Source of the DNA: Flagellimonas alvinocaridis
Lineage (GTDB): Bacteria; Bacteroidota; Bacteroidia; Flavobacteriales; Flavobacteriaceae
Direction: 5' to 3'
DNA: 64,000 nucleotides
Assembly (NCBI RefSeq): GCF_004916895.1
Contig: NZ_SNTZ01000001.1
Coordinates: 1,024,263 to 1,088,262 of the forward strand
Below, in pieces: positions 52,513 to 58,447 of this stretch. Position numbers and translations under genes: made by a program. Every line of letters starts with the position of its first letter. Position 1 is the first letter of the stretch. A model generated the notes under the pieces. The model was not told the origin of the DNA, ran no database searches, and saw only the letters and a list, made by a program, of their open reading frames with translations.

Positions 52513-52740
52513 TTAAACCAAAGGGGTTCCTTTAAGACGCTTTTCAATTTTTTGCTTTTTAAGGGTCAGATTTTTCATCACTTCCATCAATTTGGAATCT
52601 TTGGTCTTTTTATAGATCTCATTAATGGATAATATAAGCTGTTTGGCTTCCCTGGAAGCTTCAACCCTATCGCTTGTGGACATGTGGCTCAGAGGTCTGT
52701 TTTCAAACTCTTGGGCCTTTGTAAGTAACTCTTGAGTCAT
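52513..52740 (-). CDS. Small conserved-type hypothetical protein
   Basis: A 75-residue, charged, helical, cytoplasmic protein (LLTKAQEFENRP ... EIYKKTKDSKLMEVMK ... KQKIEKRLKGTPLV). It has no signal peptide or membrane segment. It has its own strong terminator 26 bp downstream, so it is an independent transcription unit. Function unknown; similar small proteins occur in related flavobacteria (impression, not searched). Confidence 0.75.
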   Translation of the reverse strand: MTQELLTKAQEFENRPLSHMSTSDRVEASREAKQLILSINEIYKKTKDSKLMEVMKNLTLKKQKIEKRLKGTPLV

Positions 52741-52965
52741 TTTTGTTTAAAATTAATCTGAATTGGCTAAATATAAGGGTTTGTTTTATAGTTTGTGCTT
52801 ATAATACCATTCGATTTTTGTATTTATGAAAACCTTAAGAGAAAAAGGTCGCTTTAACTTTTTTTTCTAAGTTTCAAAAACGTGGACGGGTGAAAAACAG
52901 CTTTTTAAAGTGATTGGACCCGTGTCAACGCAGTTGCGCACTAGTATGGAATGCGTTCCGGTCTT

Positions 52966-54300
52966 CTAAGGTTTTTGAAACTCCACCCCTTCTATTTTCA
53001 CCACCACCGGGTTGGGCCAGGTCTGGTCGTTGTAGAGGCGTTGCGATCGCATCACACTTATGGTAAGACCACCTTCCGTGGACAAGATCTTGGGAGCTGG
53101 GTCCGTGTTCGGGGCGTACTCCAACACTTTTCCATTTTGTCCCAAAACGCTGATCTTGGTATTGGGACCCGCCTTTACGGAATTTAGGGTAAATGCCTTC
53201 CGTTTTCCAAAGGGCATGGCCTCTTTGGTGATAAAGGCATAAACGGTATTCTGGTTCTTCTTTTTGGTGAACCAGATGTTTCCTTCGCGGATCACGCCCC
53301 AAGATTCCACCTCATGGATGGACTCCCCGTTCACAAACTGCCAAAGGGCCACTTCGCGAAGGCGCTCTTCCTGTTCAATGGGCAATGAGCCATCCGGTTT
53401 TGGTCCCACGTTCAGCAACCAGTTGCCGCCTTTAGCCCTGATCTCAATAAGTTGCTCAATAATATCCGTGCCGCTTTTATAAGTCTCGTTGGTGGGTTTG
53501 TACTGCCATTGGGTACCCATGGTATAGCAAGCCTCCCAAGGGGCGGGCATGGGTTCGTTGGGTGTGTTCTGTTCGGGGGTGTGCATAACGCCGCGGGTCA
53601 CTACAATGTCCGGGTCCATGGACCAGGCCACCTTGGCCAGTTCCGTCTCTGCATATTGCTCCATACCGTCCAGAAAGATGAGGTCCACCTTACCATAGTT
53701 GGTCAACAGTTCCCGCAACTGCTTTTTGGCAAAAGCGTTGAGTTCTGGGTTGCCGGAAGCCTTGGCCTTGGGATCTACCCGACTGATGGTAACGCCCTGC
53801 TCATATAAAAAATGAAAATCGTCCGGGGAAAAATATACGCCAATGGCAATGCCTTCTTTTCGGAACGCATCAAAGACCTCGCGGGTGGCATCCCGCCCAA
53901 AGGGCGTGTTCATGATGTTGTAGTCCGTGGTCTTGGTATCGTACATGCAGAAGCCGTTATGGTGCTTGGTGGTGAACATTACGTACCGCATCCCGGCCAG
54001 TTTGGCCAGTTTGGCCCAATTTTCGGGGTCAAATGCCTTGGGGTTGAAGGTCTTTGGTAGCTCTTCAAAATAGCGTTTGGTGTAATCTTCCGATGCCCCG
54101 ACAAGGGAGTGGCTGATCACGGAGCCCAGTTCCACATCCACACTCCAATGGATGAACATGCCAAAACCTTGCTCGGAAAACCAAGCTTCCCTTTCCGGTT
54201 TGTTCAGGTTAAGGACTTCTTCTTGGGCGTGTAGGGAAACAGGCAGCAATAACAACATACAGCCTAAGATTTGGAAACAACAGGTTGTAAAAAACTTCAT
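52966..54300 (-). CDS. GH29 alpha-L-fucosidase
   Basis: A 444-residue secreted alpha-L-fucosidase. The signal peptide ends near SLHAQ (residue 26). The catalytic barrel has FGMFIHWS, FTTKHHNGF (residues 109-117) and VDLIFLDG, with nucleophile Asp211. A C-terminal beta-sandwich follows. It is one of the more GC-rich genes here: a 60-nt sample at 53401 is 50% GC against 32-38% in the neighbouring island. No linked SusCD pair is present, so its glycan source is unclear. Confidence 0.95.
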   Translation of the reverse strand: MKFFTTCCFQILGCMLLLLPVSLHAQEEVLNLNKPEREAWFSEQGFGMFIHWSVDVELGSVISHSLVGASEDYTKRYFEELPKTFNPKAFDPENWAKLAKLAGMRYVMFTTKHHNGFCMYDTKTTDYNIMNTPFGRDATREVFDAFRKEGIAIGVYFSPDDFHFLYEQGVTISRVDPKAKASGNPELNAFAKKQLRELLTNYGKVDLIFLDGMEQYAETELAKVAWSMDPDIVVTRGVMHTPEQNTPNEPMPAPWEACYTMGTQWQYKPTNETYKSGTDIIEQLIEIRAKGGNWLLNVGPKPDGSLPIEQEERLREVALWQFVNGESIHEVESWGVIREGNIWFTKKKNQNTVYAFITKEAMPFGKRKAFTLNSVKAGPNTKISVLGQNGKVLEYAPNTDPAPKILSTEGGLTISVMRSQRLYNDQTWPNPVVVKIEGVEFQKP

Positions 54301-54379
54301 TGGCTATTAAGGTTTGGTGTGGTCCGCTAAGATACGCACTTGAAAGGAAACGAAAGAAACTAAACCCTAATGTTGGTGG

Positions 54380-54817
54380 TTACCCGCAACATGGGGCACA
54401 GCAACGGTTGCGTACCAGTATGCCTTGGTACACATGGGTCACCTGTAGCCGTAGAAAAGGGTCCGGGGGATCTATGAAAAAGGAGAGCTGCAGTTTATCA
54501 TGGTCCACATACCAACTGCCTTGGTGCAGGGGGCGGGGCAGCTGCAGCATTTGGCCCTCATGGGGCCCTTGGGCACCGGGCATGGCAAATTGAAAGGCGA
54601 AGGGAAACACCATATAGTCCAGCACCGTTATTTGGGCCACGCCCTCTTGTGTTGTTTTCTGGAGGATCACATGGCCCTGCGGCCTATGCACCCGTTGCAG
54701 CAATTGCCCGTTTTGGTGGTTTTGGATCTCCAAGTTGGCAAAGCTAAGGTGCAAGGGAGCTTGGGAGTTTTGGTGGAGAAAGCGGTCAAAGGCGGATAAA
54801 ATGGAGGGTGTTGGCAT
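54380..54817 (-). CDS. Hypothetical protein with Cys-rich C-terminus
   Basis: A 145-residue protein of unknown family, cytoplasmic by sequence (no signal peptide). It has a Gln/His-rich character (RFLHQNSQAPLHLSF) and ends RNRCCAPCCG. Several frames are open here because the region is GC-rich, but the minus-strand frame has a plausible ATG and an exact TAnnTTTG box 33 bp upstream. The adjacent regulator gene is divergent. Moderately confident that it is real. Confidence 0.5.
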   Translation of the reverse strand: MPTPSILSAFDRFLHQNSQAPLHLSFANLEIQNHQNGQLLQRVHRPQGHVILQKTTQEGVAQITVLDYMVFPFAFQFAMPGAQGPHEGQMLQLPRPLHQGSWYVDHDKLQLSFFIDPPDPFLRLQVTHVYQGILVRNRCCAPCCG

Positions 54818-54849
54818 AGTAGATAGTTGATTTTGGGATTCTCTATATT

Positions 54850-54857
54850 CAAAAATA
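54850..54857 (-). promoter_or_regulatory. Candidate -7 box for the 54380-54817 gene
   Basis: Minus-strand TATTTTTG matches TAnnTTTG exactly, 33 bp before the ATG. It lies close to the TTGTA boxes, so the neighbouring XRE protein might also influence it. Confidence 0.4.
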
Positions 54858-54866
54858 GTAAAAAGG

Positions 54867-54918
54867 TTGTAAATAACCTATTGTATACAATTCGTTGCAT
54901 AAAACTTCTTGTATGCAT
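54867..54918 (+). promoter_or_regulatory. Repeated TTGTA boxes upstream of the XRE regulator
   Basis: Three related sites occur just before the regulator: TTGTAAATAA (54867-54876), the perfect palindrome TTGTATACAA (54881-54890) and TTGTATGCAT (54909-54918). Their spacing next to an XRE gene suggests autoregulatory operators. Confidence 0.45.
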
Positions 54919-54927
54919 TTTTGATAT

Positions 54928-55170
54928 ATGTCGAAACGTGAACGAAAAAAAGAAATCCCAGCCTTTTGTGTTGAATTTGGGAAACATCTCAGAGCACTTA
55001 GGGTTGAAAATGATTTGAGTATTGAAGAAATTGCCTTCAAGGCAGGCATAGATGCTCAGAACCTACGGAAATATGAATTGGGTAAGCAAGAAATGAAAAT
55101 TTCCATGTTGAAAAGATTGGCGGATGCTTTTGGAATAACGACTTCGGAATTGTTGGCTTTTGACAATTGA
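54928..55170 (+). CDS. XRE-family helix-turn-helix regulator
   Basis: An 80-residue protein made almost entirely of an HTH_3 domain: LRALRVENDLSIEEIAFKAG ... AQNLRKYELGKQEMKISMLKRLADAFGI. A basic N-terminus (MSKRERKKE) precedes it. It probably binds the TTGTA boxes upstream and controls its own expression and perhaps the cassette that begins 245 bp downstream. It lies at the left edge of the AT-rich island. Confidence 0.9.
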   Translation: MSKRERKKEIPAFCVEFGKHLRALRVENDLSIEEIAFKAGIDAQNLRKYELGKQEMKISMLKRLADAFGITTSELLAFDN

Positions 55171-55415
55171 TTACAAGGAAATAAATTGAAGGTAGTACAT
55201 TTAAAAATCTAATGCCAGGTTCGATTTCATTCGTATCCAATGATTACTTTGGAAATCAGCCATATTATTGATAACTGCTGAATGGTAGACATTTTGGTTG
55301 ATTTATTTGCCTTTTGAGAAATTTTTCAAATAATTTTAACTTGAAAGGAAATGGATTCAAGTGAAATAGATTTGTATATTTAAGCGTTCTAATGAATGAA
55401 CTATAAGCAGTAACC

Positions 55416-56069
55416 GTGCAAAAACCAGATATTTATAGCTTATCTATTGTTCTCTTAGGCAACTTCAATCCTATAATAATTAACCCCCATTGGCTAGAGC
55501 TAAAAGGACTGATTCGAGCTTCTGATAAAGATCAAGAAGGCATTATCGAAGTGGTACATCCAGAAGTTAGTAAGTTTGATTTATCCTTTGCGAAAATTCA
55601 AGTGACTAAAGATAGGTTTCAACTTGATTGCTATAATGAAGCTGAATTTATTCTTTGCAAAGACTTAGTGATAAGTATATTTAGATATCTTGCTGAAACC
55701 CCGATTCGGGGAATAGGGATTAATCATACACGACACTTTAAGCTAAAAGATGTAAATGAATTTAAAAAATTTGGTCATTGGCTTGTCCCAGTGGAACCTT
55801 GGAACGATGACTTAAAGGAGCCGGGTGTCCTAGAATTGAAAATGGTAGAAAATGAAAATCCGGATGCAAAAGTTAGAAATACGGTAATAATAAGCCCTTC
55901 AGGTGTGGTTAGGCCACTTGGGGTTTCTTTTCAGCTTAACTATCATATTCACTTTGATAGAATCTCTGATGCAACTGTTGATGGAACAATAGAAAAGCAT
56001 TGGGAACTTTCTGCAGTTAAGGCTATGAATTTATATGAAAATATTTTAAAGCGTTTTCAAAATGAGTAA
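55416..56069 (+). CDS. Unknown protein, first gene of the MBL cassette (gene A)
   Basis: A 217-residue cytoplasmic protein opened by GTG; no in-frame ATG gives a sensible N-terminus. It appears to be an alpha/beta protein with a central motif GIGINHTRHF (residues 99-108) followed by FGHWLVPVEPW, and is rich in beta-strands. I do not recognise a named family; from memory, proteins with this layout occur beside MBL-fold genes in other bacteria. It overlaps gene B by 8 bp, and base composition is AT-rich (a 60-nt sample at 55501 is 38% GC). A role in defence or conflict is inferred from context only. Confidence 0.8.
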   Translation: MQKPDIYSLSIVLLGNFNPIIINPHWLELKGLIRASDKDQEGIIEVVHPEVSKFDLSFAKIQVTKDRFQLDCYNEAEFILCKDLVISIFRYLAETPIRGIGINHTRHFKLKDVNEFKKFGHWLVPVEPWNDDLKEPGVLELKMVENENPDAKVRNTVIISPSGVVRPLGVSFQLNYHIHFDRISDATVDGTIEKHWELSAVKAMNLYENILKRFQNE

Positions 56070-56637
56070 TACACTTGTTCAACCGGTTTGGTATGAAGAT
56101 GCTCAGTTATTAAGAACTGATATTGATGAAGAATCAATACTGACTAAGCAAATCGACGACCTATATTCTGGATATGGTTTGATTGACCATGGTTCAAAAG
56201 GATTTCTTTCTGAACAAGAAGCACCATCCCTATATGAATCTTCAAAGGGTTTTATTGTATCTCAAGAATTGGGTTATTTAAGAAAGATTCCAAGGTATAA
56301 TTACTATAAGGACCCCTCAACTATTACTAATGATTATCTCAAAATGAAAGGATTTGTTACTTCCATCGAAGAAGATAGTTTTAAAGGGCGTTTATTTAGC
56401 GATGATGGCACCTATGAATTAGTGGAATTTGAAAAGGATTCAGTTTCAGAGGAAGATTTACCTCTTTTCAAAGAAGGAGCCATATTTTATTGGATTTTTG
56501 GACTTTTTACTATAAGGAAACAAAGAAAAAAGGTTTCAGAAATTAGATTTCAAAGAATAGCCCCTTTGAATCCAAATGAATTTGATTCTTTAATGGATAA
56601 GGCTGACAAATTGAATGAAGCTATAGATTGGGATTAA
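56062..56637 (+). CDS. Small beta-rich protein, second gene of the MBL cassette (gene B)
   Basis: A 191-residue protein. The C-terminal half looks like a small beta-barrel: MKGFVTSIEEDSFKGRLF (residues 95-112), then EGAIFYWIFG (138-147) and SEIRFQRIAPL (159-169). The pattern KGxV...E.D.FxxRL...GAIFYW...S.IRFxR recurs in short bacterial proteins of unknown function (recollection, not searched). The N-terminal half is less ordered. It overlaps gene A by 8 bp and gene C by 10 bp, so it is made together with the MBL hydrolase and may be its partner. Confidence 0.8.
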   Translation: MSNTLVQPVWYEDAQLLRTDIDEESILTKQIDDLYSGYGLIDHGSKGFLSEQEAPSLYESSKGFIVSQELGYLRKIPRYNYYKDPSTITNDYLKMKGFVTSIEEDSFKGRLFSDDGTYELVEFEKDSVSEEDLPLFKEGAIFYWIFGLFTIRKQRKKVSEIRFQRIAPLNPNEFDSLMDKADKLNEAIDWD

Positions 56638-57752
56638 AACGTAACTTTTTTACTCTGCCAAAAGAGACAGAAGCAGAAATAACGCTTATCGGTACTGGTG
56701 GTGGTTATGGGGAGTCTATGGTTGTTAGGGTAGGCCGCAATTGGATAATTGTTGATAGTTGTATTAATCCTAAAACTAAGGATGTTTTACCCTTACAGTA
56801 TTTGGAAGAAATTGGAGCAAACTTAAATGATGTAAGCCTTGTTATATGTACACATTGGCACAATGATCATATTAGGGGCCTTTCCCATATTTTGGAAGTG
56901 TGCGAGAATGCAAAATTTATTGTCCCAAGAGTTAATGACAAGGATAAATTCGTAAGGTTTATTACCCTTGATTCTGAGAAAGAAGCAAAGGGTGGATTTT
57001 CTTCAATTGATGAATTTGGAAAATGTTTAGAACTATCAGTGTCTAAGAAAATTAAAGTTGTTAGAGCGTCTTCGAATCAAGTTTTAGGAAAAATACAATT
57101 TAATGTTGGGGGAAACGATTTAGGGGAGTTTGAAATTGACTCTTTATCTCCTTCGGAAAGTGTTGTTGCACATTTTGACAGAGAACTGGGGGCATTATTA
57201 GACAAGAGGTTTTCGGTTGTAAGCGTACCGGAAAAAGGTCCAAATGATAAATCTGTAGTTATCTTAATTAAGCATAAAAAGTTTTCTGCCCTATTGGGAG
57301 CGGATTTGGAGGTTAAGGAAAATCAGGATCAAGGATGGCATGATATCATTAACAACTGTCTTATGTTTAATACCAAACCTGTAATTTACAAATTACCACA
57401 TCACGGGTCCCAAAATGGATATCATGAAGATATTTTTAAGAATATTATAGGAGACAATGCAATTCTTAAATTGACACCATGGAATAGAGGGTCGAAACTT
57501 CCCGAACTAGAGATGCTGAAAAAATACAGGGAACACTCAACTGATCTGTTTATAACCTCTCCTGTGCATAATAACCAACCAAGACCAAAAGCAAGGTCTA
57601 AATCATTGCATAAAATGGCGGAGTTATTTTCAAAAAATCTGTCGGAAATGAAATTCGAGCTAGGAATAGTTAGGTCAAGAATTGATCTGTCTGATTCTCA
57701 TCCTATGGTATCTGTTGAATTATTTGGAAGTGCTTTTAAGGTCGCAGATTGA
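56628..57752 (+). CDS. ComEC-like metallo-beta-lactamase-fold hydrolase (gene C)
   Basis: A 374-residue MBL-fold protein. The zinc motif THWHNDH is at residues 75-81 (His76, His78, Asp80, His81). Further ligand-type segments are LLGADLE and KLPHHGSQNG, the latter characteristic of ComEC/Rec2-type MBL domains. There is no signal peptide or membrane segment, so it is a soluble hydrolase, possibly a nuclease or phosphodiesterase. The start is a TTG inside the end of gene B (10-bp overlap). It ends 60 bp from a convergent AbiC-like gene. Confidence 0.88.
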   Translation: MGLKRNFFTLPKETEAEITLIGTGGGYGESMVVRVGRNWIIVDSCINPKTKDVLPLQYLEEIGANLNDVSLVICTHWHNDHIRGLSHILEVCENAKFIVPRVNDKDKFVRFITLDSEKEAKGGFSSIDEFGKCLELSVSKKIKVVRASSNQVLGKIQFNVGGNDLGEFEIDSLSPSESVVAHFDRELGALLDKRFSVVSVPEKGPNDKSVVILIKHKKFSALLGADLEVKENQDQGWHDIINNCLMFNTKPVIYKLPHHGSQNGYHEDIFKNIIGDNAILKLTPWNRGSKLPELEMLKKYREHSTDLFITSPVHNNQPRPKARSKSLHKMAELFSKNLSEMKFELGIVRSRIDLSDSHPMVSVELFGSAFKVAD

Positions 57753-57812
57753 ATATCTAAACAGGTTGTGCGGGTAAAGAAAGTCCAATCATATTTAAAT
57801 TTAACAGAAACA

Positions 57813-58304
57813 TTAGATGGGTTCATTTTTTCTGTTCAAAATGTTTTGTATTTCTTCTACACAATCCTTTTGTTTTTTCTTAGCTTCTATTATTTCTGAT
57901 ACAAATTCACTTATTTTTTCTATTTCTATATAATAGTTCAGCAACGAATTCAGAGCATTTAGTCTAGCTGTTGTTTTTAAATTGTTTGATTGACGCTCAA
58001 GTTGCTTTTCAGATCTATCCTGAGCATCTGCGGACCTTTTTAATTCCTTTCGAGTCTCTATTAGTTCTTGTCTTTGCAGGGATAGTTCATTCCGTTGAAG
58101 TATTATGGTGTAAATGATGCCGGCAAAAGCCAAAGCCGAAAACAAACTATTTATTGTTCCAAAACTATCTCCAAAAGCTCCAATATCTTTACGGTTTTCG
58201 GGCCCCCACCAATGTTCAAACCCATACCAAAGTCCTCTCCAGACTAGAATAACGAGCAGAAGTAATAATATCAATCCAACGTAATTTTTGAATTCTTTAC
58301 TCAT
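57813..58304 (-). CDS. AbiC-like two-helix membrane protein with coiled coil
   Basis: A 163-residue protein starting at the ATG at 58304; a longer frame from 58406 runs into tRNA-Phe and is rejected. Helix 1 (residues 8-24) and helix 2 (about 50-67) are followed by a long charged coiled coil (LQRNELSLQRQELIETRKEL). The segment DIGAFGDSFGTINSLFSALAF plus YTIILQ matches the N-terminal pattern of putative phage abortive infection (putAbiC-type) proteins. It is convergent with the MBL cassette and lies just downstream of tRNA-Phe. Defence function is inferred. Confidence 0.7.
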   Translation of the reverse strand: MSKEFKNYVGLILLLLLVILVWRGLWYGFEHWWGPENRKDIGAFGDSFGTINSLFSALAFAGIIYTIILQRNELSLQRQELIETRKELKRSADAQDRSEKQLERQSNNLKTTARLNALNSLLNYYIEIEKISEFVSEIIEAKKKQKDCVEEIQNILNRKNEPI

Positions 58305-58337
58305 GATATTTAAACTTAAATTGTCAACCAAAAAACA

Positions 58338-58370
58338 AAACCCCCATAACCATTGTGGTTGTGGGGGTTT
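58338..58370 (-). terminator. Terminator of tRNA-Phe
   Basis: CCCCCATAACCA and TGGTTGTGGGGG form a 12-bp stem (one G-U) with a TTG loop, extended by AAA/TTT. On the minus strand it is followed by TTTTGTTTTTT. It lies 4 bp beyond the tRNA 3' end. Confidence 0.9.
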
Positions 58371-58374
58371 GCTG

Positions 58375-58447
<73 letters not shown>

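Follow-up and report, generated by a model that had tools for sequence, protein, structure and literature searches.

A 64,000-nucleotide stretch of the Flagellimonas alvinocaridis genome (the window; all coordinates without a locus label are window positions) carries three overlapping genes, A, B and C, on the forward strand. We propose, with slightly more confidence than doubt, that they form an undescribed, horizontally mobile antiphage cassette in which A and B detect infection and release C to act as a DNase. Gene A (55416-56069, +; GTG start) encodes a proposed sensor of 217 residues. Gene B (56062-56637, +; ATG start) encodes a proposed adaptor of 191 residues, and gene C (56628-57752, +; TTG start) encodes a soluble ComEC-type metallo-beta-lactamase (MBL) hydrolase of 374 residues, the proposed DNase effector. 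All three are taken from the list of open reading frames (ORFs) and are open throughout; A and B overlap by 8 bp, B and C by 10 bp. These sizes and overlaps are exactly those given in an earlier reading of the letters alone (the sequence-only reading), and every motif it named is present: GIGINHTRHF in A, EGAIFYW and IRFQR in B, and THWHNDH and KLPHHGS in C. The AT-richness that it pointed out is also real. The G+C content of the trio is 34.8%, compared to 42.2% for the whole window, and the trio is the most AT-rich stretch of the window: among 1,234 windows of equal length (step 50 bases), none free of the trio is as AT-rich.

The three genes behave as one unit. Among 395 genomes of the window's phylum, A (found by BLAST), B (by profile, E-value 1e-3) and C (by profile, E-value 1e-25) are present in the same four genomes, the window's own included, and lie side by side. 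C without A and B was not found in the 395 genomes at 1e-25, a threshold that leaves out remoter MBL proteins. A is present in 2 of 395 genomes of the window's order. A single peptide pattern from A, run against 84,980 species genomes, gave at least 49 loci, Croceitalea among them. With the window, two plasmids and a phage contig, 53 distinct loci were obtained. In 50 of the 53, the order is A, B, C, all on one strand, so the trio is more than a chance arrangement. The exceptions are L040, whose contig ends within A, and L060 and L061, which contain a divergent A and other partners. The loci were found via A, and the count therefore tests A with B and C; the reverse was tested by the profile searches with B and C.

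The trio spans 11 phyla, nine of them from tree labels, together with Bacteroidota (an Adhaeribacter plasmid) and Nitrospinae (from a record title). A tree of the trio mixes phyla: Rhodothermota group with Latescibacterota, and an alphaproteobacterium lies among Gemmatimonadota. The tree has 44 rows. Duplicate, broken, split or contig-cut loci (L057, L037, L046, L039, L017, L056 and L028) were left out, as were the three loci without B and C; L057 duplicates L010 and is not counted. Many of the trio records have names that we take to be those of sponge-symbiont assemblies. C is in pieces or shortened in L039, L046, L056 and L038, and A too in L038 and L039, by decay or assembly error. In L017 (L017:11312-15806), C is interrupted by about 3.4 kb with an ISXO2-like transposase (family by eye), and a similar fragment is found 1.2 kb downstream of the trio in L018.

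Several copies are located on mobile DNA. One is on the Adhaeribacter plasmid, and another, on a conjugative plasmid of Pantoea, has a tyrosine-recombinase gene on either side. A third is in an IMG/VR contig that also contains phage-type genes; on that contig, the trio is bordered by genes for a BglII-type endonuclease, an MT-A70 methylase and a D12 methylase. A repeat scan of viral contigs returned the same single contig, and a tblastn search of 50,697 phage records with C gave no match. The sequence-only reading's suggestion of similar trios in distant bacteria, forming a mobile unit, was borne out, and A and B do co-occur with C.

In the window, the trio is located near a tRNA-Phe gene (58374-58447, −), the tRNA neighbor mentioned in the sequence-only reading. 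All 12 same-genus genomes have coaX next to tRNA-Phe, and in each of them A, B and C are absent from the 2.8-14 kb around the site (an extent limited by contig ends). A conserved gene for a 75-residue protein (52513-52740, −) lies at the opposite side of the slot. It is separated from tRNA-Phe by 5.6 kb in the window, by 151 bp in the relatives L098 and L099, and by 7.6-11.2 kb in five other relatives; in the remaining five same-genus genomes it lies outside the stretch compared. Beside the tRNA the relatives differ, with Fic-like, DUF4065-like and integrase-like genes (by eye). These differing genes and the absence of the trio at the site indicate that the tRNA-Phe side is a variable slot, and that this genome probably acquired the trio recently. 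A simple ‘empty site’ reading of the slot is weakened by a recurrent gene block common to the five relatives with the longer distances (by eye), which makes up much of their 7.6-11.2 kb; not all of it is cargo.

The distribution bears on the possibility that the trio is an operon for housekeeping or DNA uptake that plays no part in conflict. The ComEC-like domain in C and the many copies amid ordinary genes would suit such an operon. It is nonetheless very improbable, given that A is found in just four of the 395 phylum genomes, that none of the three genes is near the site in the same-genus genomes and that copies exist on plasmids and in a phage contig. Homologues confined to conserved housekeeping operons would have spoken against a defence role; the plasmid and phage-contig copies, and others described below, are found elsewhere.

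C can be assigned to a family. It matches PF00753 above the cut-off (8e-11), and TIGR00361 (ComEC) in part (1e-13; 50.4 bits against a cut-off of 190). Among solved structures, ComEC nuclease domains are closest in sequence (9ic4, profile 1.9e-12). C also matches phrog_28593 (8.5e-39) and, in PADLOC, RTasMBL (6.9e-15) and LmuA (1.5e-10); at 1e-5, 35 of 40 C proteins match LmuA and 33 match RTasMBL. Residues H76, H78, D80, H81, D226, H258 and H259 are invariant in all 40 aligned C proteins. The first four are in the metal-binding HWHNDH motif (residues 76-81; 56853-56870, +), and the last two, with an equally invariant G260, are in the PHHGS element (residues 257-261; 57396-57410, +). By sequence, C is a ComEC-type MBL hydrolase with an intact metal site. 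The alignments of the A, B and C families (A4, A5 and A6) have 45, 45 and 40 rows from 54 sources, with near-duplicates and incomplete genes left out.

The conserved blocks N..SVV, (G/S)AD and KxPHHGS around the metal site are common to C and ComEC. C is not a ComEC/Rec2 uptake protein: it scores far below the TIGR00361 cut-off, and its ORF spans the nuclease domain only. Unlike ComEC/Rec2, it has no membrane channel and has operon partners of its own, and it contains a full HxHxDH where two aligned ComEC chains have HPDADH. The description of C as ComEC-like without the membrane part was therefore correct.

MBL nucleases have lately been shown to be effectors common to several antiviral systems, activated by a partner protease (PMC12799240). 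The gated MBL nuclease-protease pairs are HamM of Hachiman, Avs1a, the MBL proteins of Lamassu and DRT, and CanC of Canu. These protease-activated nucleases are the closest studied relatives of the trio. Both feature a soluble ComEC-type MBL enzyme in a small operon, of a kind adopted by several unrelated defence systems, and C matches PADLOC models of such proteins; its score with NF041809 (Avs1a) is 27 bits against a cut-off of 420. Unlike these pairs, the trio has an unnamed A and an OB-fold B ahead of the MBL gene, and no trypsin-like or caspase protease. No protease model in Pfam, NCBIfam or PADLOC matched A, B, a helix-turn-helix (HTH) gene upstream or a 197-residue neighbor. Since no protease is seen in the trio, control must differ or use a host protease.

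With proteolytic control, C would be a pro-nuclease gated as in Hachiman, Avs and Canu and opened when A, B or a host protease cuts it. The PADLOC scores of C are with MBL models of DRT and Lamassu systems, and C aligns to RTasMBL with little net gap (C residues 25-280 to profile positions 8-256). The interval between the two conserved blocks covers 104 profile positions in C (88-192), compared to 62 residues (83-145) in the ComEC nuclease 9ic4, and gating loops are described for that MBL family in PMC12799240. However, the stretch from HxHxDH to GxDLE has a near-fixed length of 131-148 residues with an invariant E129, unlike a loose loop. The next interval, from GxDLE to HHG, measures 24-29 residues, only about six above 9ic4. 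Together with the lack of any protease family match to A or B, this makes proteolytic gating of C unlikely.

MBL-fold enzymes are catalytically diverse, and C might cleave a signaling nucleotide or RNA instead of DNA, which would place the trio in signaling or counter-defence. Phage nucleases that attack cyclic nucleotide signals (the subject of PMC9117128) and the trio in the phage contig are consistent with this. We consider it decidedly unlikely, given the ComEC blocks in C and the ComEC nucleases as its best solved-structure matches. Cleavage of DNA is the activity that our proposal assigns to C.

A and B belong to no family that can be named, in agreement with the sequence-only reading: no Pfam or NCBIfam (2026) or PADLOC (2023) model matched either protein at E-values up to 1. 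For B, a weak PHROG match was found (phrog_29493, 7e-4), and a sequence search of the Protein Data Bank (PDB) found nothing. In the predicted model, residues 1-88 are of low confidence and are followed by an OB-fold and a helix, with a block of pLDDT 83-98 at residues 91-170. Residues 89-165 (56326-56556, +) superimpose on the C-domain of archaeal IF5A (1bkb; Z 9.4, root-mean-square deviation (rmsd) 2.1, 63 residues aligned), with cold-shock domains next. The best Foldseek E-value is 1.8e-3, with none below 1e-3. The predicted domain is an OB-fold with a five-stranded barrel; the shared fold says nothing of function.

For A, no PHROGs match was found. The motifs G-x-F-N-P-A-I-F-x-P-x-W and G-I-N-x3-H-F are conserved in the family alignment A4. 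The AlphaFold model (pLDDT 92.8) has a mixed alpha/beta fold whose last helix is long. AdoMetDC was the best Foldseek match (E-value 1.8e-4) but was rejected as a relative, with a TM-score of only 0.37. In a second structure comparison, guanidino-kinase halves reached Z 9.0 (rmsd 4.2, 168 residues aligned) and were also rejected, and AdoMetDC and TBP chains were near Z 7; best Z values of 7 to 8 are usual in that tool for models without a true match. A PDB sequence search with A gave weak matches, the best being 3.5e-4 over a 24-residue stretch. The predicted fold of A is one without a clear relative in the PDB, and we do not claim it as new. The TIGR04255 sporadic family resembles A in being a sporadic protein in small operons of unnamed genes, and this operon shape suggested it as a relative. 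Comparison of A4 with one member by hhalign gave a probability of only 1.2%, and an NCBIfam scan of A returned no TIGR04255 match.

A-type proteins are also found with other partners. When profiles were compared, A matched the divergent A proteins of L060 and L061 at 98% (2e-13), a match that is partly by construction because these proteins were chosen via A's own peptide pattern. The link to an A-like protein in L086, found by profile, is less sure (82%, 1e-5). In L060 (L060:9980-11596), the divergent A heads another three-gene group, whose third gene encodes a HEPN protein (PF05168, 23.5 bits against a cut-off of 22). In L061 (L061:452-2237), it heads a group with two unnamed proteins. A further A-like group, followed by unnamed genes, is found in L085 (L085:1011-1646) and L086 (L086:6413-8240); both genomes also contain a trio, and the L086 group adjoins an integrase-like gene (by eye). 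This suggests that the A-type protein is a sensor used with different effectors. A relationship of the L061 partner genes to those of L064, and of the L086 ones to those of L063, was considered and dropped; similarities between two sequences were faint (3e-4 and 2e-4), and one pair had none.

The working of the cassette may be pictured as follows. A would sense an infection cue or phage product. B would use its OB-fold and flexible tail to join A to C or to nucleic acid, and would hold C off until the trigger. C would be the effector, a DNase harmful when active; once triggered, it would degrade DNA and halt the infection or the cell. One lineage may use the cassette as a backup effector of the DUF499/DUF1156 type of BREX-related (BR) systems, where it lies between the DUF7680 and methylase genes.

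The link to BR systems came from the neighbors of the trio. In a clustering of neighboring proteins, the top family is a protein of about 1000 residues encoded directly downstream in four loci, and it carries DUF1156, the methylase of BR systems (PMC12839542). DUF1156 has 54 matches in 21 of the 45 trio genomes. In L022, L035, L032 and L036, the methylase gene shares the strand of the trio and starts 0, 6, 45 and 111 nt, respectively, beyond the final sense codon of C. The number of DUF1156 starts expected within 300 bp is 0.0017 (Poisson P 3.5e-13); the distance test was picked after the neighbors were seen, and the P value needs discounting but would survive a thousand-fold correction. L032, L035 and L036 have DUF499 and DUF7680 genes upstream and a helicase downstream. 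In L016, the trio is in a BR system with other genes stacked beside it and the methylase 6 kb further on. L026 is similarly stacked, and its contig stops after the trio. L022 is a 4-kb contig with only the end of DUF7680, the trio and the methylase. Thus the trio lies within a DUF499-methylase-helicase locus in L016, L032, L035 and L036, and in L022 and L026 as far as the contigs reach. The four methylase-adjacent cases are not one clade; they need four changes on the tree, all forced by starred branches, and the six BR cases need six, four of them forced. These four forced changes indicate that the association was gained or lost several times.

The auxiliary backup effectors reported for BR systems in PMC12839542 are HNH, PD-(D/E)XK, HEPN, PIN, Schlafen and TOPRIM. 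The trio sits inside such a system in six loci, as auxiliary nucleases do; unlike them, it is also found without a BR system, for example in the window. In the main text of PMC12839542, MBL, ComEC, lactamase and DUF7680 do not occur, and ‘metallo’ occurs once. A search of open-licence PMC papers found none that names DUF7680.

Traces of DUF7680 are present next to several trios. Of 53 loci, 12 have DUF7680 within 600 bp upstream of A, either the full gene or a 3'-end fragment and always on the strand of the trio, compared to none of 53 control windows and none of 53 reversed windows. The gene is whole in L035 and L036, a 3'-end fragment in L016, L026 and L032, and cut by the contig in L022. 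In L020, L039, L048, L028, L029 and L034, it occurs without BR context in the available sequence; L020, L039 and L048 are near-copies of each other, and L028 is a 3-kb contig. The match in L034 is borderline (E-value 0.005), and the other eleven are at 1.3e-4 or better. Downstream of the trio, 2 of 46 windows matched, one a genuine copy in L016 and the other, in L041 at 0.006, probably by chance. Repeats of the DUF7680 3' end stand ahead of the trio in L026 (139 nt, 98% identical) and in L032 (58 nt, 93%). L016 contains a DUF7680 fragment before the trio and a full copy after it, and partial copies of the methylase start beyond the next module. Scars of the methylase 5' end were not found downstream of trios outside BR loci in 46 windows, where only the four loci with the true gene matched. 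We read these fragments as traces of cassettes that would enter and leave the DUF7680-methylase slot by recombination. In L016 (L016:5800-19874), L026 (L026:4100-12508) and L032 (L032:2300-12700), cassettes are stacked between DUF7680 and the methylase. The stacked loci contain partial repeats of the ends of core genes, 58-168 nt long and 83-98% identical.

A fuller version of our proposal is possible, and we hold it tentatively, as one that may well be wrong. Here, A and B would be a protease-free control unit for an MBL DNase, and A a phage sensor of an unnamed fold group with swappable partners: the MBL protein in the trio, the HEPN protein in L060, and other unnamed genes in L061, L085 and L086. 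The trio would be a portable backup effector, moving in and out of BR loci by recombination at the DUF7680 3' end and leaving scars. If true, the trio represents a second way of controlling an MBL nuclease, with two unknown partners, and adds two unnamed protein families to those assigned to bacterial immunity. The scars left by DUF7680, together with the stacking of cassettes, would offer a directly testable account of how effector modules are loaded into and unloaded from defence loci. No description of the trio was found in searches of the main text of open-licence PMC papers; PMC12799240 refers to further loci in a supplement figure, and the trio might be among them.

Placement inside BR loci also bears on the possibility that the trio is a toxin-antitoxin or plasmid-maintenance unit, with C as the toxin, A and B as the antitoxin, and phage defence at most a side effect. 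The small overlapping genes, plasmid copies and sporadic distribution fit such a unit. The repeated placement inside BR loci does not, and A, with its well-ordered predicted fold of 217 residues, is unlike a small antitoxin. We regard a toxin-antitoxin role as rather unlikely.

Several observations weigh against the proposal of an antiphage cassette. By eye, more than half of the trios are among ordinary genes with no nameable defence gene adjoining. The window's own trio has the HTH gene and a small unknown gene as neighbors and no recognized defence gene, and its genome contains no DUF1156 match. The BR link is limited to one clade of the trio tree, and the window's copy is outside it. The DUF7680 match in L034 is no better than the chance-like downstream match in L041. 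The roles of A and B are drawn from predicted fold and position only. A PADLOC scan of neighbors in 20 loci with 5 kb on both sides (159 proteins) gave 232 and 104 matching models at 1e-10, compared to 84 and 30 for 144 proteins of 20 control regions; the scans were pooled, with 25 heavily overlapping models listed per set and matches not split by locus. The comparison is not decisive, as the controls contain type III restriction and DpdF matches, and we claim no enrichment. Recurrence beside defence genes, the support asked for in the sequence-only reading, is seen in the copies beside or inside restriction or BR loci; by eye, more than half of the trios, the window's among them, are without such neighbors. 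The candidate defence system of the sequence-only reading is supported by the unit, its mobility and the BR loci, with the same limits.

One further neighborhood contains an MBL protein. In L059 (L059:12616-17144), a Prok-E2/ThiF/JAB/patatin protein and a second MBL-like protein (by eye, with no Pfam match) are encoded beside the trio, and they are probably another defence system. 6A-MBL (NCBIfam NF058524) is likewise an MBL protein in a multi-gene defence system, and an E2/ThiF/JAB/patatin protein adjoins the trio here. C differs from members of that family: its score is 17.5 bits, and the cut-off is 220.

The slot in the window (52741-58373) contains other genes. A small Cro/CI-type HTH gene (54928-55170, +; PF01381, 1.4e-12) lies upstream of the trio. 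It is a possible regulator, and only a candidate member of the trio. Its frame is 37% identical to one in the slot of a relative (L097), and HTH-like frames are present in others alongside other cargo (by eye). A glycosidase-like gene (52966-54300, by eye) has a G+C content much above that of the trio, so the slot was probably filled in more than one step. A 145-residue frame (54380-54817, −), the reality of which is uncertain, recurs near the same slot in L090, L093, L096 and L097 (by eye). Downstream of the trio, a listed ORF of 197 residues (57813-58406, −) overlaps tRNA-Phe, suggesting that its true start is probably internal; its product resembles a small membrane coiled-coil protein (by eye).

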